Positions 31,867-43,619 of a DNA stretch of 64,000 nucleotides are shown piece by piece. How positions within the stretch are numbered: the first letter of the stretch is position 1; the number at the start of each line of letters is the position of its first letter. The notes beneath the pieces are model-generated. The model was given only the letters and a program-made list of their open reading frames with translations. It was not told the DNA's origin and searched no databases. Origin of the DNA: Campylobacteraceae bacterium (GTDB lineage Bacteria > Campylobacterota > Campylobacteria > Campylobacterales > Sulfurospirillaceae); NCBI GenBank assembly GCA_027050775.1, contig JALUBH010000026.1, positions 1 through 64,000 of the forward strand, in the 5' to 3' direction. A program made the position numbers and the translations under genes.

Positions 31867-32010
31867 CTAAAATATTCTTGTAAGTATATTTAAAAACTTT
31901 TCCCACAGAGATTTTTTCTGTGGTTTGTAAATTTCTGTGGTTTTGTTTATGAGCCAGTCGAGATGCATTGAAGCATTTTGCAGGTTTATAGGTTCAAAAT
32001 CATTTTGCAT
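31867..32010 (-). CDS. Small coupled gene after the MotB-like gene (47 codons)
   Basis: A 47-residue frame starting at ATG 32010, eleven bases before the end of the MotB-like gene, and ending at 31867. The product starts MQNDFEPINLQNASMHLDWL and has an amphipathic basic C-terminal half (KKSLWEKFLNILTRIF) that could lie on a membrane. Overlap with the upstream gene suggests translational coupling. It fills most of the 172-base gap before yggT. No family is recognised; it could be chance. Confidence 0.45.
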   Translation of the reverse strand: MQNDFEPINLQNASMHLDWLINKTTEIYKPQKKSLWEKFLNILTRIF

Positions 32011-33013
32011 CTAAAATCCTCTCTATCTCTTTCATCGCATTTTGATTTTTTAGTGAAAATTTTATCTCTATCCTTCTTGAGGCATCTTTGTTTTCTGTGC
32101 CGTCTTTGTTGTAAATCGGATCAAGATATGACCTCCCACTTGCTATCATTAGAGATCTTATATGGTGCTTTTTCACAAAATTAAGACTTAAAAGATAATT
32201 CATCACCTCGTAGGCCCTTTTTTGAGAAAGCTCTAAATTGTATAAAAATCCACCATCGCTATCAGTATGTCCTTCGATGATAATTTTGTTTATATGATCT
32301 TTGATGTCTTTATTTCCTAAAAGCGCACCAACATACTCTATAAAGACTTTTTTCAGTTGTTTTTTTGAATTCTCTTTGAGGACGGCTTTTCCCTTGTCAA
32401 ACAGTATATTTGATGAAAATCTCAAGGATCCGTTTTTTGGATTAATCTCTATCTTGCTGCCAAGTATTTTTTTAAGTTCAGCGATAACCCTTATGCGAAT
32501 TCCTGTGAGATTTTTTATCTTTTCTTTGGTTTTTTGCATTTGAGCTACAAGTCTGTCATATCTAGTCTCTTTTTCTCCTAGAGTATCGAGAAGTTTTAGT
32601 AGCTGCTCATCTTTTAATTTTATTGCACTTTTTTTGTCATTTAGTTCATTTGAAAGGACTAAGACTTTTCCTTTGTAGTCATCTAGACTCTTCTGCTTTT
32701 CTAAAAGAGAAGCATTTACATCGTTTATGACTGATTGTAGAATGACTATTTTATTGCTAAAAGAGCTTAATTGTGTATTTCTCTTAAAAAGCATGGCTTT
32801 TAAATCTTGGATTTCGTCATTTTTCAAATCAAGTGCACTTTTCTTCTTTTGTAGTGAGCTTTCGCTTGAGACAAGATTGTGTTTTAAGATGATGGATTTT
32901 GTTACAATTGCACCTATGAGGAGGATAAAGACAAAAAGCAGTCCTGCCATTAAATCTGCGTAAGATATCCAAAAGTTTGTGATGTCATCGTTTTTATTTT
33001 TTTTAAAAATCAT
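32000..33013 (-). CDS. MotB/OmpA-family motor protein with long coiled coil
   Basis: 337 residues. The N-terminus has the MotB/ZorB-type channel helix with Asp20 in WISYADLMAGLLF, expected to carry protons (or sodium ions) with the partner TolQ/MotA-like protein. A coiled coil covers about residues 50-170. The C-terminal OmpA domain (about 200-325) has IIEGHTDSDG and LSQKRAYEVMNYL, which bind peptidoglycan. Its partner gene is seven bases upstream. The pair is not accompanied by flagellar genes. Candidate roles are envelope tension or outer-membrane pulling, or a ZorB-like function. Confidence 0.85.
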   Translation of the reverse strand: MIFKKNKNDDITNFWISYADLMAGLLFVFILLIGAIVTKSIILKHNLVSSESSLQKKKSALDLKNDEIQDLKAMLFKRNTQLSSFSNKIVILQSVINDVNASLLEKQKSLDDYKGKVLVLSNELNDKKSAIKLKDEQLLKLLDTLGEKETRYDRLVAQMQKTKEKIKNLTGIRIRVIAELKKILGSKIEINPKNGSLRFSSNILFDKGKAVLKENSKKQLKKVFIEYVGALLGNKDIKDHINKIIIEGHTDSDGGFLYNLELSQKRAYEVMNYLLSLNFVKKHHIRSLMIASGRSYLDPIYNKDGTENKDASRRIEIKFSLKNQNAMKEIERILDAK

Positions 33014-33020
33014 CTGCTTA

Positions 33021-34148
33021 TTATCTCTTAAACTGTCTTAACATCTCTTTGTGGTACTCCTCTAAATCTTGCAAGATTTTTTCATTATGACCATCTAAAA
33101 GATAGGCGAAATCAGCAAGCTTCACAACTATATCAGCTACTTCTTTATCTATTTTTCCAAAAGATGAATCTATATTGTTTGCTAGTTTGTCATTTACAGT
33201 TGAAATGGTATTATCAAGTGAATTTGTAGCGTTTGTAAACTCTTTTATCGTATTATCGAGGTTTTGTGTTGCATTCAATGCTTCACTAGAGTATTGCACC
33301 TGTGAAAGTGTTTCACTGAGTTTGTTTGCCGCATTGTTCATGTCTTCGGTTATGCCTGAAAAAGAAGTTGAAGTTGTCTCTATAATATCTTTAAAATTGT
33401 TTAGGTACTCTTCATTTAAAACTCTTACTTTATCGGCCGTAAATATCTCTTTTAGTGCATTTACAAGATTTTGATTTTCTATCTGCCTATTTTCATACTG
33501 GTATTTGTCGAGCTCGTTTTGACTCCAAACATATTTTGAGTAGAGGGTTTTTATGTATTCAAGTGTTTTAGTAATTTTGCTTATTCCTCTTTTTTCAAAA
33601 AACATCCACCATAAAGATAAAAATATACCATAGATAGATGCATAAAAAGCGGTACCTACCCCACTTAAGAGTACGCTGATTTCACGATCTAGTGCTGCTA
33701 CATTTTGAACTGAAAAATCAGGCATTGACATAGCTATAGATATAAAAGTACCCAAAATTCCCAGCATTGGGAAGACTGTCGTTGCTATGGTTGAAAAATT
33801 ATCATTTCTAAAGCCGTTTATGTATTTCTCTAAAAAATCATCTATATTTGATAGGGATTTTTTATTTCCATTTATGGAGAGTAAGTTTTGATTTAGATGT
33901 TCTTGTAGTTTATCTCCTATTTCGTAAAAAGAGTTTCTGAAGCTACAAGCAGCAAAATTGGCATTGTGCTTAACAAAAAATATAAATATAAAAAATATAA
34001 AACCCAGTATAGTCAATGTGTGTGCCTCTACTTTTAACGGCACATAGCCAAAAAAAGCACCTACCGCAGCACAAAATAGCAGAAAAGGAACTGAGAATAT
34101 AACTAAAAAATTTGGAAAACAGTTTGATGATTCTTCTGTTGATAACAC
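33021..34148 (-). CDS. MotA/TolQ/ExbB-type proton channel protein
   Basis: 375 residues. Two early helices (about 12-58) are followed by a cytoplasmic segment, then TTVFPMLGILGTFISIAM and SGVGTAFYASIYGIFLSLWW, the two conserved MotA/ExbB channel helices. A cytoplasmic tail of about 170 residues with coiled-coil character follows, much longer than ExbB. The start is GTG with AGGAGAC upstream. It is divergent from the Crp/Fnr gene. The long tail resembles ZorA, but no ZorC/ZorD genes follow; the system is an orphan pair. Confidence 0.85.
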   Translation of the reverse strand: MLSTEESSNCFPNFLVIFSVPFLLFCAAVGAFFGYVPLKVEAHTLTILGFIFFIFIFFVKHNANFAACSFRNSFYEIGDKLQEHLNQNLLSINGNKKSLSNIDDFLEKYINGFRNDNFSTIATTVFPMLGILGTFISIAMSMPDFSVQNVAALDREISVLLSGVGTAFYASIYGIFLSLWWMFFEKRGISKITKTLEYIKTLYSKYVWSQNELDKYQYENRQIENQNLVNALKEIFTADKVRVLNEEYLNNFKDIIETTSTSFSGITEDMNNAANKLSETLSQVQYSSEALNATQNLDNTIKEFTNATNSLDNTISTVNDKLANNIDSSFGKIDKEVADIVVKLADFAYLLDGHNEKILQDLEEYHKEMLRQFKR

Positions 34149-34220: not shown

Positions 34221-34253
34221 ATACAAAAAGCAAAAAAAGTCAGGATTTTGTTA

Positions 34254-34904
34254 ATGCTGGAAAAACTACAATCTACTCCTTTACTTGGTTCTTTGCCTGT
34301 AGAGTTAGTAGAAGAGATTTCACTCTTTTGTAAAATAAAAAAATTTACAAAAAATGAAGTGCTTTTTTATGAAAATGATGAAGTGGAAACTATATACTAC
34401 ATACTTAAAGGATCTGTTAAATTTTACAAGGTTGACAGGTTTGATAATGAGATATTTTTATATAAGCTCTCCAAAAATTCTCTAATTTTTGATCTTTCCA
34501 AATTGTGCGATGAATACATACTCCAATGTTTTGCAAATGCTGAATTTATAGAAGAGAGTGAAATTTTAGCTATTGATGCAAAAAAGTTTAAAGCGTTGAT
34601 GAAAAAAGACCAAAAATTGATGCGAAGAATTATGAAAGAATCTTTTTTGATGATTCAACAGATGCAGTGTATTATAAGTCGGGATATTGTGTTTGACGGA
34701 ACAGCAAAGGTTGCCCACATGATAGATAATGATTTGAAAGATTTTAATATGCTTAAGAAACATGAAATAGCATATATGTTGCACATGCAACCAGAAACAC
34801 TCTCGAGGATTTTGAAAAAATTAACAAGAAACAGTATCATCAGGATGGAAAATAACCAAGTAGCAGTTCAGGACTCCAAAGAGCTGAAAGATATATATAG
34901 TTAA
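34254..34904 (+). CDS. Crp/Fnr-family transcription regulator
   Basis: A 216-residue regulator with an N-terminal cyclic-nucleotide-binding-like beta-roll (about 15-110; ENDEVETIYYILKGSVKFY) and a C-terminal winged helix whose recognition helix lies in MQPETLSRILKKLTRNSII. It has no N-terminal Cys cluster, so it is not an oxygen-sensing Fnr of the usual type. ATG 34254 is preferred (CAGGA eight bases upstream) to TTG 34248. It is 11 bases ahead of the PilJ-type sensor and just upstream of nap, so it probably controls nitrate respiration; this is inference. Confidence 0.85.
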   Translation: MLEKLQSTPLLGSLPVELVEEISLFCKIKKFTKNEVLFYENDEVETIYYILKGSVKFYKVDRFDNEIFLYKLSKNSLIFDLSKLCDEYILQCFANAEFIEESEILAIDAKKFKALMKKDQKLMRRIMKESFLMIQQMQCIISRDIVFDGTAKVAHMIDNDLKDFNMLKKHEIAYMLHMQPETLSRILKKLTRNSIIRMENNQVAVQDSKELKDIYS

Positions 34905-34915
34905 GGAATTTTACA

Positions 34916-36292
34916 ATGATTAAACCATCAGGCATAAACAATAAATTAAAATTAGTAGGAGGTTCTCTTACTTTTGTGGTGATTGCAACTATCATGATTT
35001 CATTATATATGAATATTAGAAGTAAAAAAGATGCACTTATCATCAATATAGCAGGAAAGCAAAGAATGCTTACACAAAAAATCAGTAAGGAGATTTTTTA
35101 TGATATACTTAAATATTCTACAGATTTTAGGATAGTTGATAGTGCTATGAGCACATTTGAAAATAATCTCCACGATCTTATCAACGGAAACAGTGCAAAA
35201 GGTATCTATCCGCCACAAAATAAAAAAATAACAGAAAAATTAAAACAGGTTCAAAAGATGTGGGTGCCTTTTAAACTACATGTCCAAGAGTTGGAAAAAA
35301 ATCTAGAAAAAATAAGCCCTAGTTTAGAAGTATTTACTATTAAAATCAATAAAATCCTATCTATGTCCGACAATATAGTAAAAACTATGGTAAAAAACAA
35401 TATGAAAGGTACATATATAGACTTATCTGGCAGGCAAAGAATGCTCTCTCAAAGAATGGGTCTATTTCTAAAGAGATATCTAAGAACTTCAAATAGAGAA
35501 GATTTTATAATATATCTAAACGCCAAGGATTTATATAACATGACGATTATAAACTTTTTAAACGATGAAAATATAAAAGATAATAAAGTGGTATATGCGG
35601 CTTGTAGAGCCACTTATGACGATTGGAAAAATTTTCAGAAATATGCAAATAAACTTATAAGTGAACAAGCAAACATAAATAAACTCACACAATATATATA
35701 TAAAAACAATGTTATAGTACTCAAAAATATGGATGAAGCCGTATGGCTTTTTACGGATTATAGCGAACAAAAAAATATGTTTTTCGTTTATATACAATTT
35801 ACGCTTTTGAGTTTGGGCTTAATTATGATTTTGTATAGTTTTTTACTTACAAAAGAGATCATAAACCATGTTAGGGATTTTATAGATAAAGCAAAAATGT
35901 TAGCCTCGGTCGATATAGCTCAAATCAATTCAAAAAATTTTAAACTTGCAGAAGCAAATGAAGATGAACTTAAAGAAGCCTCTAGCCATATAAATTCTTT
36001 TGTGCAAAAGGTAAATAATGCTCTAAATCATTCCCAAGATGCCATAGATAAGGCCGGAAGAGCCGTTGAAGAACTTGAGAGTCTCTCGGATGGTGCTAGC
36101 GAAGCACTATCTTCTTTGGAGTTTAATTGTAAGGATAAAAAAGGTTTTGACAAAAAGATAAGTGCCACAGAAGATATAGCAATAGAATCAACTGAAAACC
36201 TTCTACATGTAACAAAGATGCTTGAAAAATTAAAATCAAATCTAAATTCAATATCACGAATGGAACAAGAAAAAAGTGATAATTTGACTTAA
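34916..36292 (+). CDS. PilJ-type (nitrate P-box-like) membrane sensor without a recognised output domain
   Basis: 458 residues. TM1 (about 14-32) and TM2 (about 289-311) enclose a periplasmic helical region with two PilJ/NarX-like boxes: AGKQRMLTQKI (46-56) and SGRQRMLSQRMG (171-182). In NarX the equivalent box binds nitrate. After TM2 come about 145 cytoplasmic residues that look like coiled coil, with no histidine-kinase, GGDEF or clear chemoreceptor signalling tip. Its place between the Crp/Fnr gene and napA suggests nitrate or nitrite sensing; signal output is unknown. A degraded palindrome copy (36204-36211) lies near the end. Confidence 0.8.
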   Translation: MIKPSGINNKLKLVGGSLTFVVIATIMISLYMNIRSKKDALIINIAGKQRMLTQKISKEIFYDILKYSTDFRIVDSAMSTFENNLHDLINGNSAKGIYPPQNKKITEKLKQVQKMWVPFKLHVQELEKNLEKISPSLEVFTIKINKILSMSDNIVKTMVKNNMKGTYIDLSGRQRMLSQRMGLFLKRYLRTSNREDFIIYLNAKDLYNMTIINFLNDENIKDNKVVYAACRATYDDWKNFQKYANKLISEQANINKLTQYIYKNNVIVLKNMDEAVWLFTDYSEQKNMFFVYIQFTLLSLGLIMILYSFLLTKEIINHVRDFIDKAKMLASVDIAQINSKNFKLAEANEDELKEASSHINSFVQKVNNALNHSQDAIDKAGRAVEELESLSDGASEALSSLEFNCKDKKGFDKKISATEDIAIESTENLLHVTKMLEKLKSNLNSISRMEQEKSDNLT

Positions 36293-36305
36293 GTCATAGA
36301 ATTAT

Positions 36306-36359: not shown

Positions 36360-39206
36360 ATGTCGCTTTCAAGAAGAGACTTTTTAAAGTCAACTGCTGC
36401 TGCTAGTGCAGCCGCCGCTGTAGGTATCTCTATCCCTGATGATATGCAAGCTGCTGCTACTGCAACGCAGGATAAATGGAGATGGGATAAGGCAGCTTGT
36501 CGTTTTTGTGGAACGGGTTGTGGAATTATGCTAGCCACCAAGGGTAAAGGATTAAATAGAAAGATTGTTGCGGTCAAAGGAGACCCGGCAGCTCCGGTAA
36601 ATAGAGGTCTTAATTGTATTAAAGGTTATTTTAATGCTAAGATTATGTATGGTGCCGATAGGTTAACAACACCATTGCTTAGGATGAATGCTAATGGTGA
36701 ATTTGACAAGTATGGTAAATTTGCACCTGTTAGTTGGAAAAGAGCATTTGACGAGATGGAAAAACACATCAGATATGCTTTAAAGAAAAACGGTCCTGAA
36801 GCAGTTGGTGTTTTTGCAAGTGGACAATATACTATCATGGAAGGCTATGCTGCTCAAAAAGTGATGAAAGCCGGTTTTAGAAGTAATGCTTTTGATCCGA
36901 ATGCAAGACACTGTATGGCTAGTGCCGTTGTCGGTTTTTATCAGACTTTTGGAATCGATGAGCCAAGTGGTTGCTATGATGACATAGAGTTGACAGATAC
37001 TATCATAGCTTGGGGTTCAAATATGGCAGAGATGCATCCGATCCTTTGGTCAAGATGTACAGATAGAAAACTTAGTGATCCAAATCATGTAAAAGTTGTC
37101 AGTATCCAGACATATATCAATAGAACTTGTGATTTAGCTGATGATACGATTATCTTCAGACCTCAAACAGATATGCTTTTATGGAATTATGTAGCAAGAG
37201 AGATTGTATATAATCATCCTGAAGCAATTGATTGGGATTTTGTAAAAAAACATATAATTTTTGCAGCCGGTCCTGTAAATATCGGTTATGGCATGAGAAG
37301 AAAGGGTGAACCTTCTTTGACTCCTGCTAGAAGTGACGGAAGCTCAGGACGATATGATGCAAAAGAGATGCAAACTATCAGTAAAGAGATGAGTAAAAAA
37401 GTAGGCTCGAGAGAAGCTCCTGCATTGGCGCCTTATGGTTACAATGAAGGTGAAGTTATGAAAAACAGTGCAGGTACTTTAAAGCACTGGCATATCAGTT
37501 TTGAAGAGTATAAAAAATCACTAGAACCATATACACTTGATTATGTAGCAAAAGTTTCAAAAGGTGATCCCGATGAGCCGTTAGATGCATATAAAGCAAA
37601 GTTAAAAAGATTAGCTGCTTTGTATATAGAAAAAGGAAGAAAAGTAGTAAGTTTTTGGACAATGGGTATGAACCAACACACTCGTGGTAGCTGGGTAAAT
37701 ACTTTGTCTTATAATGTTCACTTTTTATTAAACAAACAAGCAAAACCTGGAAATGGTGCTTACTCATTGACCGGACAACCAAGTGCATGTGGAACTGCAA
37801 GAGAAGTCGGAACATTTTGTCATAGACTACCGGCAGATATGATGGTCAAAGTCAAAAAACACAGGGTGATAGCAGAAAAAAGATGGCACATACCAGAAAA
37901 TACCCTAAATCCTATCGGAAATCAGCATATTATGAAAATCCACAGAGATATAGAAGATAGATTTATAAAATTTGCATGGGTAAATGTATGTAATGCTTAC
38001 CAAGATAGTGCAAGTGCAAAGCACTGGTTGAAAGCCGCAAGAGAGGTAAAAGATCTCTTCTTGGTTACAAGTGACGGATATCCCGGAATTTCTGCTATGG
38101 TTTCGGATCTTGTGCTTCCAAGTGCTATGATATATGAAAAATGGGGTGCTTATGGAAATGCCGAGAGAAGAAGTCAACACTGGAGACAACAAGTACTGCC
38201 CGTAGGCAATGCCATGAGTGATACTTGGCAGTGGGTTGAGCTTTCTAAAAGATTTACAGTTGATGACCTTTGGGGACCTTATACTCTAAGAAATGGTACA
38301 AAACTAGCTGATGTTAGAGGTGCTGCACAAGCTATGGGATACAAAGGCGATACAACTATGTATGAGATACTATTTGCAAATGATAGAGCCAAAACTTATA
38401 AAGCAGATAGAGTAAATGATCCAATTCAGCGAGGATATGATGATTCTGAAGTTTTTGGGGATGAAAGAAATGTTGTCGGAAGTGATGGAAAAGTCTTTAA
38501 GGGATACGGTTTCTTTATTCATAAATATTTATGGGAAGAGTATGCAGATTTTGGCAGAGGTCACGGTCATGACTTGGCTCCATTTGATGTTTATCAAAGA
38601 GTTAGAGGCCTTAGGTGGCCGGTTGTAAATGGAAAAGAGACACTTTGGAGGTTTAATGGCGAGTACGATCCTTATGTTAAACACTTCGCAGGTCCAAATG
38701 CAGATTTTGCATTCTATGGTCCGATAGCTAAAAATTTATTCCAAGGAAATCTAAGAGGAATGAACAAATCTCTTGGTAAAAAAGGGCTTAAAAATAAAGC
38801 GAAAATCTTTGCCCGTCCATATATGGATCCACCGGAAATGCCAGATGCCGAATATGATACTTGGTTGTGTACCGGCAGGGTGCTTGAACACTGGCATAGT
38901 GGAACTATGACTATGAGAGTTCCTGAACTTTTCCGTGCCGTTCCTGAAGCACTATGTTATATGAATCCAAAAAGTGCACAAGAAAAAGGCCTAAAAAGAG
39001 GTGATTTGGCATGGATTGAGAGTAGAAGAGGAAAAGTAAAAGTCAGAGTTGAAACAAGAGGAAGAAACAGACCTCCTAGGGGATTGGTTTTTGTGCCTTG
39101 GTTTGATGAAAAGATTTTGATAAATAAAGTTTGTTTGGATGCTACATGTCCTATGTCAAAGCAGACAGACTATAAAAAATGTGCCGTTAAGATATATAAA
39201 ATATAA
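36360..39206 (+). CDS. napA: Periplasmic nitrate reductase, catalytic subunit
   Basis: A 948-residue Mo-bisMGD enzyme that reduces nitrate to nitrite in the periplasm. The twin-arginine signal is [13 protein letters not shown]. The 4Fe-4S ligands are Cys47, Cys50, Cys54 and Cys86 (CRFCGTGC then GLNCIKG). The Mo ligand is Cys185 in [10 protein letters not shown]. The length of about 950 is typical of Campylobacterota NapA and exceeds the 828 of E. coli by internal insertions. A very strong AGGAGG ribosome site precedes it. First gene of napAGHBF-x-LD; the absence of napC is usual here because NapGH supplies electrons. Confidence 0.98.
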
Positions 39207-39217
39207 AAGGGTAAATT

Positions 39218-40099
39218 TTGAATCACAAACAAGAAAAGGTTAAGTCATATAGACAGCCACTAAGTAAGAGTAGAAGGGGATTTTTAGGTACAACTAGAAA
39301 TATCGGTCTAGCAATATTGGGTGGATTGACTTGGAGTGCTTATGTGGATGAAGCAAAGGCAAATAAGCTTTTGCTTAGACCTCCGGGAGCACTCAAAGAG
39401 AGTGATTTTCTTAAAACTTGCATCAAATGTGGTTTGTGTGTAGATGCTTGTCGAAACAGAAACGGAAATATCATCTTTGATGATAATGGCAAAAGAGTTG
39501 GCACGAAAGACCCGACTCTTAGACTGGCAGTTCCAGGAGATAACAAGCCACTAGGAAATCCATTTTTTATAGCAAGAGAAAATCCTTGTTTTATGTGTGA
39601 TGATATACCTTGTGTTCCAGCTTGCCCTAGCGGAGCTCTTGACATATTAAGTGTAACAAACAAAAAGACAAAAAAGCTAGATATCAATATGGCAAGAATG
39701 GGCTTGGCAGTTGTTCATAAAGAGAGCTGTATAGCTTATTGGGGACTCCAATGTGATGCATGCTATAGAGCTTGTCCTCTTATGGGAAAGGCTTTGAGCA
39801 TAAATATGCAGATGAACAAAAGAACAGGAAAACATGCATTTTTGCTACCCGTTGTTCATAGTGATATATGTACAGGTTGTGGACTTTGTGAAAAGGCTTG
39901 TATCGTTGAGAAAGCTGCCATTTTTGTTCTTCCTCGTGAGCTTGCGATGGGAAAGGTTGGAACTCACTATGTAAAAGGATGGGATAAAAAAGATCAGCAA
40001 AGAGTGGGGGTTGCCCAGTCAATCCATACCATAGACAAAAGAAGCGAGAAAAAAGCGATAGATAAACTAAATAACCCAGGAGGGCTGTTAGATGACTAG
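39218..40099 (+). CDS. napG: Quinol dehydrogenase ferredoxin subunit NapG
   Basis: A 293-residue periplasmic iron-sulfur protein with a twin-arginine-type signal (SKSRRGFLGTTRNIG) and several 4Fe-4S clusters: CIKCGLCVDAC near 68-78, CFMCDDIPCVPAC, CDACYRAC and CTGCGLCEKAC. With NapH it moves electrons from menaquinol towards NapB/NapA. The start is TTG, after AAAAGGG. It overlaps napH by eight bases. Confidence 0.95.
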   Translation: MNHKQEKVKSYRQPLSKSRRGFLGTTRNIGLAILGGLTWSAYVDEAKANKLLLRPPGALKESDFLKTCIKCGLCVDACRNRNGNIIFDDNGKRVGTKDPTLRLAVPGDNKPLGNPFFIARENPCFMCDDIPCVPACPSGALDILSVTNKKTKKLDINMARMGLAVVHKESCIAYWGLQCDACYRACPLMGKALSINMQMNKRTGKHAFLLPVVHSDICTGCGLCEKACIVEKAAIFVLPRELAMGKVGTHYVKGWDKKDQQRVGVAQSIHTIDKRSEKKAIDKLNNPGGLLDD

Positions 40100-40922
40100 A
40101 GTAAGATATCTTATAGCAAGAAGAGTTGTTCAAGTGGCTATTTTGTTGCTATATTTCGGAGGAAATTATTATGGATGGAAGATGCTTACAGGAGATCTCA
40201 GTTCATCATCAATATTAGGAACAGTGCCTCTAAGCGATCCTTATGCTGTGCTTCAAATGTTTGTAGCAGGAGCTGTTATATCATCAAATATTCTTATAGG
40301 AGCAGCGATTATTTTCTTATTTTATGCTCTTATCGGTGGTAGAGCTTTTTGCTCTTGGGTTTGCCCGGTCAATATCATAACTGATGCCGCAAATTGGACA
40401 AGAAGAAAGTTTGGTTTTGATATGGTTGCAAAAAAACAGCCCTCAACTAGACACTTGAGATATTGGGTTTTAGTTATAAGCTTGATTATCTCATTTTTTC
40501 TCGGACTTACTGCTTTTGAGTTTGTTTCACCTATATCTATGGTGCATAGAGGCATCATTTTTGGTATGGGATTTGGTTGGGCGGCTATGGCAATACTCTA
40601 TCTATTTGATCTTTTTGTGCTTAAAAATGGCTGGTGTGGACATATTTGCCCACTCGGAGGTTTTTATTCTATAATCGGAAAATTCAGATTACTAAAAGTT
40701 AAACACGATAGCGTTGCCTGCACAGGGTGTATGAATTGTAAAGTTGTATGTCCAGAATCGCAAGTTTTACATATGATAGACAAAGTTTCCGTTCCTGTAA
40801 CCTCAGGAGAGTGCACAAATTGTGGCAGATGCATAGATGTTTGTGAAGATAATGCCCTCGGGTTCTTTTTAAAAGTTAAAAATAATAATGAAGGAGAGAT
40901 AAATAATGAAAAAAATGAGTAA
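40092..40922 (+). CDS. napH: Quinol dehydrogenase membrane subunit NapH
   Basis: A 276-residue protein with four membrane helices. Cytoplasmic CSWVCPVN and CGHICPLGG motifs are the conserved Cys-x3-CP pair of NapH. The C-terminal domain holds two 4Fe-4S sites, CTGCMNCKVVCPE and CTNCGRCIDVCED. It takes electrons from menaquinol and passes them to NapG. The final 17 bases overlap napB. Confidence 0.95.
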   Translation: MTRVRYLIARRVVQVAILLLYFGGNYYGWKMLTGDLSSSSILGTVPLSDPYAVLQMFVAGAVISSNILIGAAIIFLFYALIGGRAFCSWVCPVNIITDAANWTRRKFGFDMVAKKQPSTRHLRYWVLVISLIISFFLGLTAFEFVSPISMVHRGIIFGMGFGWAAMAILYLFDLFVLKNGWCGHICPLGGFYSIIGKFRLLKVKHDSVACTGCMNCKVVCPESQVLHMIDKVSVPVTSGECTNCGRCIDVCEDNALGFFLKVKNNNEGEINNEKNE

Positions 40923-41529
40923 AATCGCTCTTAGCATCGTAGTTATCGGAATTTTTGCAGTAGGATGTGCTACTACAAACGGATCAGTAAGTGACGATTC
41001 TTTGAGTCTAAGAAAAGCCAACGTGCAAAACGAGAGTAGTATAACGCTAAAAAAGGTAAACTATACCAATGCAGCACCGGGTGAAGCAAAAAAGATAGAA
41101 AGATCTTATGACAATGCACCACCTCTTATCCCTCATAGTGTAGTAGGTTTGGTTCCTATTACTAGAAATAACAACTCATGTTTGGGATGTCATATGCCAG
41201 AAGTTGCGGCAAGTGTTCATGCAACACCGATTCCTAAATCACACTTCATGAACTTTAGGCCTACGGAAGTTATCGCTAAAAATGGTAAACTTATCAAAAA
41301 AGGTGATATAGTTGCTAGACCAAATGATGGATCAAATGATGTTTTTGCAACATCAACTCATGGTAAGTTGTATGCAGGAAGATATAACTGCACTCAATGT
41401 CATGTAGCACAATCAAATGCAAAACCATTGGTAGGTAACACCTTTAAACCAGATTATATGAATAAACAACAGATGAATCGATCAAATTTTGTAAATACAT
41501 ATGATCAAGGTATAAATACTGTAAAATGA
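40906..41529 (+). CDS. napB: Diheme cytochrome c subunit NapB
   Basis: A 207-residue periplasmic cytochrome that delivers electrons to NapA. The two heme sites are CLGCH (92-96) and CTQCH (162-166). Additional conserved His residues (for example in HMPEVAASVHA) would give bis-His ligation. The signal peptide ends GIFAVGCATT, where Cys21 could be lipidated. AAGGAG nine bases upstream supports ATG 40906. It overlaps napH by 17 bases and napF by four. Confidence 0.95.
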   Translation: MKKMSKIALSIVVIGIFAVGCATTNGSVSDDSLSLRKANVQNESSITLKKVNYTNAAPGEAKKIERSYDNAPPLIPHSVVGLVPITRNNNSCLGCHMPEVAASVHATPIPKSHFMNFRPTEVIAKNGKLIKKGDIVARPNDGSNDVFATSTHGKLYAGRYNCTQCHVAQSNAKPLVGNTFKPDYMNKQQMNRSNFVNTYDQGINTVK

Positions 41530-42020
41530 TACAAAAACGAGAGCTTTTCAGCTCTCTTGTGTCATCCTTTAAGAAAGGAGGTCAAGAGGGTGAAATTATT
41601 ATCCGACCTCCTTATTTTGACGATAAAGATGGTTTTTTAGCAAATTGTATAAAATGTGATGGAGTGTGTCAAAGTTTTTGTGAAGAAAAAATCATAGTTA
41701 TAAAAGATGATAAAACACCGGTTCTGGATTTTTCAAAGGGTGGTTGTACCTATTGTGATGAGTGTGCAAAAGCTTGTGAATTTGGTGTTTTGGATATAGA
41801 GCATAAGAGAGATATTCAAATAAGAGTTACCATAGATATGTTAAAATGTTTGAGCTGGGATAAAACGATGTGTTTTAGTTGTAAAGAGCCGTGTTTAGAA
41901 GATGCTATAAATTTTCTTGGACTCTTTAGACCTGAGATAGATACTGAAAGATGTACGAACTGTGGGTTTTGCATAAGTGCTTGCCCAACTAATGCGATTA
42001 AGGTAAAAAAATGGCAGTAA
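41526..42020 (+). CDS. napF: NapF-type ferredoxin
   Basis: A 164-residue cytoplasmic polyferredoxin. Cys clusters: CIKCDGVCQSFC, CTYCDECAKAC, CFSCKEPC and CTNCGFCISACP, enough for about four 4Fe-4S centres. NapF interacts with NapA during maturation before export by Tat. It has no signal peptide. Translation starts from an ATGA overlap with napB; it overlaps the 87-aa gene by ten bases. Confidence 0.9.
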   Translation: MIQKRELFSSLVSSFKKGGQEGEIIIRPPYFDDKDGFLANCIKCDGVCQSFCEEKIIVIKDDKTPVLDFSKGGCTYCDECAKACEFGVLDIEHKRDIQIRVTIDMLKCLSWDKTMCFSCKEPCLEDAINFLGLFRPEIDTERCTNCGFCISACPTNAIKVKKWQ

Positions 42021-42274
42021 AATTTGTATCAACTATCAAAGAAGATGGTATAGGCGGATGGTATATAGAACTTGTAGATACTCTTGATAACAGAGTTGCA
42101 ACCTGTAAAGATATAAAGCAGTATGAAGATGCGATAGAGCAGATGGGCGATGACTATGGAGCAGACATAGAGGTAGAGTGGAAAAAAGATGAAAATGTCA
42201 CAATTGCACATTTTGAAGAGGTGAGAATGGCAATATCCTCGTATCAAAAAAAGTATAATCAAGAAGCTATATGA
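42011..42274 (+). CDS. Small acidic protein of the nap operon
   Basis: 87 residues, soluble and acidic, with no Cys motif. The N-terminal stretch GGWYIELVDTLDNR is beta-like, followed by an acidic helix (EQMGDDYGADIEVEWKKDE). It starts inside napF and its stop overlaps napL by four bases, so it is part of the nap transcript. I do not recognise a named family. A chaperone or assembly role for NapA is possible from context only. Confidence 0.75.
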   Translation: MAVKFVSTIKEDGIGGWYIELVDTLDNRVATCKDIKQYEDAIEQMGDDYGADIEVEWKKDENVTIAHFEEVRMAISSYQKKYNQEAI

Positions 42275-43239
42275 TGAATTATTCGGTAAAAAAGCTTTTT
42301 GTTATTTTTGCTATTTTAACCATGCAACTTTTTGCAAAAGAGATTTCACCGACATATACTCTAAAGGCAGATGGAGAGATACTTAGTGCATTGATAGATT
42401 CTGGCAAAATTTATGTTTCCACAGATAGTAGCACGGTTGATATTTTTGATATAAAGAGTAGAACTGTTGAAAAAGTGATTAAGTTTGATAAGATAAAAGA
42501 TTTTCTTGGTGATATAAGTGATACAAGAGTTTTTTCAATAGATAAATTTGCAGACAGATTGCTATTTGTATCACAAGGTGAAGAGGGATTTAGTAGAGTT
42601 TATATATACGATGGCGGTAAAAAGAGGTTGCTTTTTGATAAAAAAGACAAATTGCCGGTAGTAAAAGCAAAATTTGTTTCAAAAGATAAGATTATTCTAG
42701 CACTTCTTAGTTCTCAAATACTTTTATATGATATAAAAAAAGCAAAATTTATATATAACAAGCAAATATCCGAATCAAAATTTTCTGATTTTGCATTAAA
42801 CAAGCAAAAGACAAAGATTGTTCTTGTGGACGAGAGTGGTAGTGCTACTTTGATTGATGTTTTTAGTGGAAAAATTATAAAAGTTTTTCAAGGGCAAAAC
42901 CTTGACAATGTATATCAAGTTGATTATAAAAATCATATAATAGCGATAGCTAGTAAAGATAGAAGGTGTGGTATATATAAAGATGATGGATCCATGGCTT
43001 ATTATAAAAAAGCAAGATTTATGGTTTATAGTACGGGTTTGAGTCCAGATGGAAGTATCTGTGCATATCCTAGTGATTTTGCAAACAATATAACAATTTT
43101 TGATGTGAACAGTAGAGAAAATTTGCATGAATTGATAGGTGATAAAAGTACAATTTCAAATATCATTTTTACCAGCGATACCACTCTTTTTACAACAAGT
43201 AAAAACAGGATAAAATTTTGGAGGTTAAAAAACAGATGA
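42271..43239 (+). CDS. napL: NapL, periplasmic beta-propeller protein
   Basis: A 322-residue exported protein with a signal peptide (IFAILTMQLFAKE) and repeated beta-propeller blades such as GKIYVSTDSSTVDIFDIKS and KTKIVLVDESGSATLIDV. NapL is found in nap clusters of Campylobacterota; deletion work in relatives suggests a role in NapA activity, but the mechanism is not known. It overlaps the 87-aa gene and napD by four bases each. Confidence 0.85.
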   Translation: MMNYSVKKLFVIFAILTMQLFAKEISPTYTLKADGEILSALIDSGKIYVSTDSSTVDIFDIKSRTVEKVIKFDKIKDFLGDISDTRVFSIDKFADRLLFVSQGEEGFSRVYIYDGGKKRLLFDKKDKLPVVKAKFVSKDKIILALLSSQILLYDIKKAKFIYNKQISESKFSDFALNKQKTKIVLVDESGSATLIDVFSGKIIKVFQGQNLDNVYQVDYKNHIIAIASKDRRCGIYKDDGSMAYYKKARFMVYSTGLSPDGSICAYPSDFANNITIFDVNSRENLHELIGDKSTISNIIFTSDTTLFTTSKNRIKFWRLKNR

Positions 43240-43619
43240 ATATATCAAGCATAGTAGTACAGACACTACCAAAGTATTTAGATGATGTAGTAGCGGAGTT
43301 AAAAGCCAGTGAAGTTTGTGATTATCATTTTCATGATGAAAGTGGAAAAATCATCATAACGATAGAGGGTGAAGATGTCTCAGAAGAGCTTAGCAAACTA
43401 AGAGTTGTAGAAGAGATAGTTCATGTTGTCTCAGCCGACATGCAGATGAGTTACAGCGAAGATGAACTAGACCGCCATATGAGAGTCTTGGAAAATGCTG
43501 ACGCTGTTCCAAAAGTTCTAGATCAAGATACAACAAAGATAGATCCAAGCACAGTTGTATATAATGGTGATTTGAAGAAAAAAGATATATATGAATATGC
43601 GGCAAAAACAAAAGTTTAG
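43236..43619 (+). CDS. napD: NapD maturation chaperone
   Basis: A 127-residue cytoplasmic protein. The N-terminal 80 residues have the ferredoxin-like NapD fold (ISSIVVQTLPKYLDDV, then SGKIIITIEGED). NapD binds the NapA twin-arginine signal peptide and delays export until the cofactor is in. The C-terminal 45 residues are extra compared with E. coli NapD (87 residues). ATG 43236 overlaps the napL stop (ATGA). Last gene of the operon. Confidence 0.9.
   Translation: MNISSIVVQTLPKYLDDVVAELKASEVCDYHFHDESGKIIITIEGEDVSEELSKLRVVEEIVHVVSADMQMSYSEDELDRHMRVLENADAVPKVLDQDTTKIDPSTVVYNGDLKKKDIYEYAAKTKV

Follow-up and report, generated by a model that had tools for sequence, protein, structure and literature searches.

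McpN, the nitrate chemoreceptor of Pseudomonas aeruginosa (structure 6GCV), binds nitrate through an arginine in the N-box of its PilJ domain, and the P. aeruginosa protein PilJ, which has two PilJ domains and no N-box, does not bind nitrate (both according to the consulted part of PMC6381276). NarX and NarQ are kinases that sense nitrate by means of periplasmic helices, have two transmembrane (TM) segments and a HAMP domain, and control the genes of nitrate respiration. Among transcription regulators, the closest counterparts are the Crp-Fnr proteins NssA, NssB and NssC of Wolinella succinogenes, the shared features being a Crp/Fnr protein near nap and boxes before nap and nrf; the literature examined, as far as its consulted portions extend, mentions no membrane partner for them, and a review, in the text available from it, calls the mode of nitrate sensing by NssA open. 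We describe here a membrane protein and propose, with a probability of about 60%, that it serves as the receptor in a two-protein nitrate switch spanning the membrane, its partner being an NssA-type Crp/Fnr regulator that it controls through direct contact.

The window analysed here is a 64,000-nucleotide stretch of DNA from a Campylobacteraceae bacterium, and the sensor ORF within it (34916..36292, plus strand) encodes 458 aa from an ATG, arranged as TM1, two PilJ domains, TM2, a HAMP-like stretch and a helical hairpin. The PilJ family (PF13675 in Pfam) gives two matches in the protein (E=6.2e-27), is present in 63 of 63 diverse relatives and has no other representative in the genome, and hydropathy places the two TM segments at about residues 11-31 and 287-313. 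Like McpN, the sensor has an N-box, a four-helix bundle and the nitrate arginine in the same place, and like NarX and NarQ it combines a periplasmic helical sensing region with two TM segments, a HAMP-like stretch and a link to nitrate respiration genes. Unlike McpN, it has a second PilJ domain and no MCP signalling domain, the MCPsignal tip finding no match in Pfam at E up to 1; unlike NarX and NarQ, it has no kinase domain, neither dimerisation/phosphoacceptor nor ATPase models matching at E up to 1 in Pfam and NCBIfam, and its constant partner is a Crp/Fnr protein. More generally, kinase, MCP signalling, GGDEF, PAS and HAMP models from these two collections yielded no match in the sensor even at E=1, and neither an MCP signalling nor a kinase catalytic domain is among the 25 most-matched families listed for the 63 relatives; a DegS match in one of the 63 (E=5e-4) is taken to be a chance match of a helical stretch. 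The sequence-only reading of this DNA had described the sensor as lacking a recognisable output domain and had named in advance a C-terminal kinase or chemoreceptor tip as the finding that would speak against its suggestion of signalling by direct contact; the profile searches of the C-terminus recovered no output domain of these or other kinds, and the relatives agree. Its further description of the part after TM2 as only coiled coil holds in that no known output domain is present, but it misses a HAMP-like stretch and a conserved EDIAIES motif.

The periplasmic region contains two nitrate boxes when scanned with the published N-box pattern, [IVL]-[ND]-x-A-G-x-Q-R-M-L-[ST]-Q. Box 1, INIAGKQRMLTQ (35042..35077, plus strand, residues 43-54), is an exact match, and its Arg50 is the counterpart of R61 in McpN; box 2, IDLSGRQRMLSQ (35417..35452, plus strand, residues 168-179), has Ser in place of Ala. 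These are the boxes that had earlier been placed at residues 46-56 and 171-182, and they are real, with positions near enough. A structure predicted from the 63 diverse relatives (mean pLDDT 84, with blocks of 88-98 for residues 11-310 and about 42-72 from residue 321 onward, the cytoplasmic part thus being poorly modelled) aligns in its periplasmic portion with PilJ (7zjr, Z 18.4) and McpN (6gcv, Z 16.8, rmsd 1.9 over 126), and over residues 4-370 with sensor-TM-HAMP fragments of NarQ (5iji, Z 14.5). The nitrate arginine is retained in 56 of 57 nap-linked sensors versus 1 of 20 nosZ-linked ones, a contrast whose Fisher test treats related sequences as if they were independent. We infer from these sequence and structural likenesses that nitrate is the likely ligand of the sensor, and the receptor half of the proposed switch is well supported. 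Some sensors (L121-L125 and L129) have a degenerate box 1 with box 2 intact or almost so, and one of these loci (L122) has acnB, an aconitase gene, upstream of its sensor-Crp/Fnr pair. A separate 563-aa protein (L240, 377-2068) has four N-box-like repeats and no obvious TM segment past its N-terminus, and is possibly a periplasmic nitrate-binding protein.

Pfam HAMP does not match the sensor, but chemoreceptors match it weakly inside residues 280-447, at their own true HAMP, and the NarQ alignment runs through HAMP; together, these indicate that TM2 is followed by a HAMP-like stretch (about residues 312-367, 35849..36016, plus strand, limits approximate) and then by two helices. In the model, these helices span residues 350-400 and 405-457, within the low-pLDDT region, and the second bears the motif EDIAIES (residues 419-425, 36170..36190, plus strand), which we propose as the output surface. 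Among 154 sensors, this motif appears as ED..I in 135, EN..I in 7 and EY..I in 6, and it is kept also in sensors whose nitrate box is lost. The low-confidence cytoplasmic part had no trusted fold match in a structure list that barely probes that part.

The partner gene (34254..34904, plus strand) encodes a Crp/Fnr-family regulator of 216 aa from an ATG, with an alternative TTG start at 34248. Its superfamily assignment is secured by cNMP_binding (E=2.8e-12) and HTH_Crp_2 (E=1.7e-8), both over the Pfam cut-off, and only two Crp-type HTH matches over the cut-off occur in the window's genome. The recognition helix QPETLSR is nearly invariant in 150 paired Crp/Fnr homologues. In the same 150 proteins, there is no invariant cysteine of the FNR Fe-S type, the best columns reaching 0.63 and 0.61, and no conserved cofactor site, cysteine columns being at most 0.63 and histidine columns at most 0.70. 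The intervals given by the sequence-only reading are confirmed: the Crp/Fnr ORF ends at 34904, 11 bases before the sensor, and napA starts at 36360, 67 bases after it. Divergent from the pair, on the minus strand of the window (32000-34148), are two ZorA/ZorB-like genes of the MotA/ExbB and OmpA types, whose scores fall short of the curated Zorya cut-offs; both recur beside the pair in L061, L062 and L085.

A profile search with E<=1e-30 recovered the sensor in 91 of 397 genomes of the phylum, distributed over 28 of 68 genera, and a Crp/Fnr ORF lay immediately upstream in each of the first 30 loci. Dropped before counting were the loci L031-L060 (repeats) and L166-L174, sensors of identical sequence, and those shorter than 280 aa or containing X (6 of 160), which left 154 full-length distinct sensors, and the upstream count was restricted to the 151 of these with at least 150 bp of upstream DNA. 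In 150 of the 151, a Crp/Fnr ORF precedes the sensor on the same strand at -62 to +63 bp (64 overlap), the lone exception (L095) being a truncated ORF that lies 427 bp downstream of a Crp/Fnr ORF. The relationship also holds in reverse: among the matches listed, to about E=1e-50, we took 49 Crp/Fnr genes that belong to the clade of the paired regulators and had given no sensor hit in the first pass (L175-L223), and directly downstream of 44 of them there is a sensor (in one case cut off at a contig end, in another split into two ORFs), versus none of eight more distant Crp/Fnr controls (L224-L231). The other five listed genes (L189, L196, L203, L204 and L208) have no intact sensor downstream, so the regulator may act without it in some species; L196 retains a 65-aa sensor remnant, and one of the five directly precedes napA. 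The trees of the two proteins agree, with a distance correlation of 0.71 over 57 representative pairs (at most 0.22 in 999 permutations), and both place the nosZ-linked pairs without an N-box in a single clade; part of this co-divergence is owed to shared species history. Adjacency, reciprocity and co-divergence strongly support, at the level of gene order and sequence, a functional partnership, and to this extent the earlier suggestion that the sensor works with the neighbouring Crp/Fnr protein stands.

The pair is also carried by Sulfurospirillum species. In one contig scan, which gives weak evidence because it used two peptide patterns from this very sensor family, all 45 loci are labelled Campylobacterota save one (Proteobacteria). 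Plasmid relatives amount to a single record in 72,556, from Sulfuricurvum kujiense. This plasmid (pSULKU01, L251) carries the nap cluster followed by a PAS protein gene, the Crp/Fnr gene, the sensor gene and moaA, with a recombinase gene near, and a box sits between sensor and moaA.

In the window, the sensor is followed on the plus strand by napA (36360..39206), the first gene of a nap cluster (36360-43619) with the order napAGHBF, an 87-aa ORF and napLD, a tblastn comparison with the annotated nap cluster of S. kujiense serving as the check on the gene names. The 87-aa ORF (42011-42274, between napF and napL) is unnamed. The gene directly downstream (same strand, within 1.3 kb) is napA for 57 sensors, nosZ for 20 and a nor gene for 6; pairs also precede norCB, and a few further sensors lie near nrfA. 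No nap, nos, nor or nrf gene was found in the available flanks, some as short as 1.5 kb, of 57 of the 154 sensors. The tie to nap drawn by the sequence-only reading is hence real, but nap is one of several targets, alongside nosZ, norCB and the nrfA neighbourhood. A predicted Crp/Fnr operator, TTGACTTAAGTCAT (36284..36297, plus strand), lies 62 bp before napA and overlaps the stop codon of the sensor. Of the 57 napA-linked loci, 54 have a TTGA-N6-TCAW box in front of napA (shuffled mean 0.76), and all 20 nosZ-linked loci have one in front of nosZ (shuffled mean 0.3); in three genomes searched whole, including two without napA beside the pair (G024 and G060), the box precedes napA in 3/3 and a gene pair containing nrfA in 3/3, other hits being intragenic or at unrelated genes. 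The boxes are probably bound by the Crp/Fnr partner. We rejected a single large regulon in the window's genome, where of 10 strict-box places, several of them intragenic, only that of napA is clearly meaningful, and general autoregulation, the 200 bp or so in front of the Crp/Fnr gene containing a box in a minority of 17 of 148 (shuffled mean 2.9, maximum 8). A second sensor-Crp/Fnr pair (L190-L194, L209-L223 and L160), which in most cases immediately precedes nosZ, no longer has the nitrate arginine of the N-box but retains the cytoplasmic motif; counted over the nosZ-linked sensors, the arginine is lost in 19 of 20, with motif and Crp/Fnr partner kept.

We propose that periplasmic nitrate would bind to the N-box within a four-helix PilJ bundle, probably where two subunits of a dimer meet, as in McpN and NarQ, and that TM2 and the HAMP-like stretch would relay the change to the short cytoplasmic hairpin with its ED-x-A-I motif. 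The hairpin would in turn control the neighbouring NssA-type Crp/Fnr protein through direct contact, with neither phosphotransfer nor a second messenger, and the regulator would then bind TTGAC-N4-GTCAW boxes, which stand in front of napA here and also of nrf and nos genes in other members. The sign of control has two options, namely that the regulator would be held at the membrane until nitrate arrives or that it would be activated by contact.

Direct contact is suggested by exclusion, from the missing output domain, the pair-bearing genomes without CheW or without a class III cyclase over the cut-off and the lack of conserved cofactor ligands in the regulator, the CheW and cyclase searches having been run on 40 genomes chosen by hand from those bearing the pair. 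The pair could instead be functional with its signal travelling via a small molecule, such as cAMP or c-di-GMP, or via a third partner, as might be expected from the cNMP-type fold of Crp/Fnr proteins and from the single class III cyclase domain that passes the cut-off in the window's genome. However, such a domain is over the cut-off in only 13 of the 40 genomes (the cyclase search covering class III), its absence at that cut-off from the other 27 makes an obligate cAMP relay by class III cyclases unlikely, and no other gene for which the loci were searched matches the constancy of the pair; we regard an intermediary as possible but unlikely. Slightly less probable still is that the Crp/Fnr protein itself senses the signal (NO or redox), the membrane protein merely modulating or localising it. 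The clade members without a sensor would fit such a role, as would the response to NO of the related Nss/Dnr regulators (stated in the consulted parts of PMC6682613 and PMC11539149), but the absence of a conserved cofactor site from the 150 paired proteins argues against it.

That the sensor is a shortened chemoreceptor working in chemoreceptor arrays and co-transcribed with the regulator by chance appears very improbable to us, even though its HAMP-like stretch resembles a chemoreceptor HAMP and a public record labels a homologue a type IV pili methyl-accepting chemotaxis transducer N-terminal domain protein. The MCP signalling domain is absent from the sensor and from the families listed for the 63 members, the Crp/Fnr adjacency of 150/151 is hard to reconcile with chance, and 5 of the 40 pair-bearing genomes, two of them single-contig (G215 and G230), are without any CheW domain, on which ground we reject an array role as the main function. 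For the preferred reading of a contact-controlled nitrate switch, one point counts against nitrate: the Nap of S. multivorans is seemingly not nitrate-regulated, according to the consulted part of a review (PMC6682613), although the pair occurs in species of Sulfurospirillum. On balance, the pair is probably a nitrate-sensing switch for nitrate respiration in the source bacterium and across the phylum.

Crp/Fnr matches number exactly three in the genome that we take to be that of W. succinogenes (G208). One of the three forms a pair with a sensor close to napA, and boxes precede napA and nrf in this genome. The best reading of the partner is an NssA-type Crp/Fnr regulator, orthology with NssA itself being a candidate relationship only. 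Control of a gene regulator through protein contact with a sensor is known from NasS-NasT and FecR-FecI, whose sensor and regulator families are unrelated to those of the PilJ sensor and Crp/Fnr. The parts of the present system are of known kinds, and what is new is the coupling of a PilJ receptor to a Crp/Fnr protein; in agreement with the earlier remark that such an arrangement had not been described, we found no such pair in the literature searched, most subscription journals lying outside it.

A broader and rather doubtful extension is that these pairs form a phylum-wide modular class, in which inputs are exchangeable and a transmembrane receptor devoid of catalytic domains would act by contact on a Crp/Fnr activator; the nosZ clade would then sense another signal and possibly be the missing N2O sensor. 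For the question of how NssA senses nitrate, the pair supplies a receptor candidate together with a putative contact surface and a site on DNA, and the question thereby becomes testable by one deletion and one point mutation. The pair suggests that a membrane receptor can drive Crp/Fnr regulators, and its nosZ-linked version offers a lead to N2O sensing that bears on N2O-consuming bacteria.
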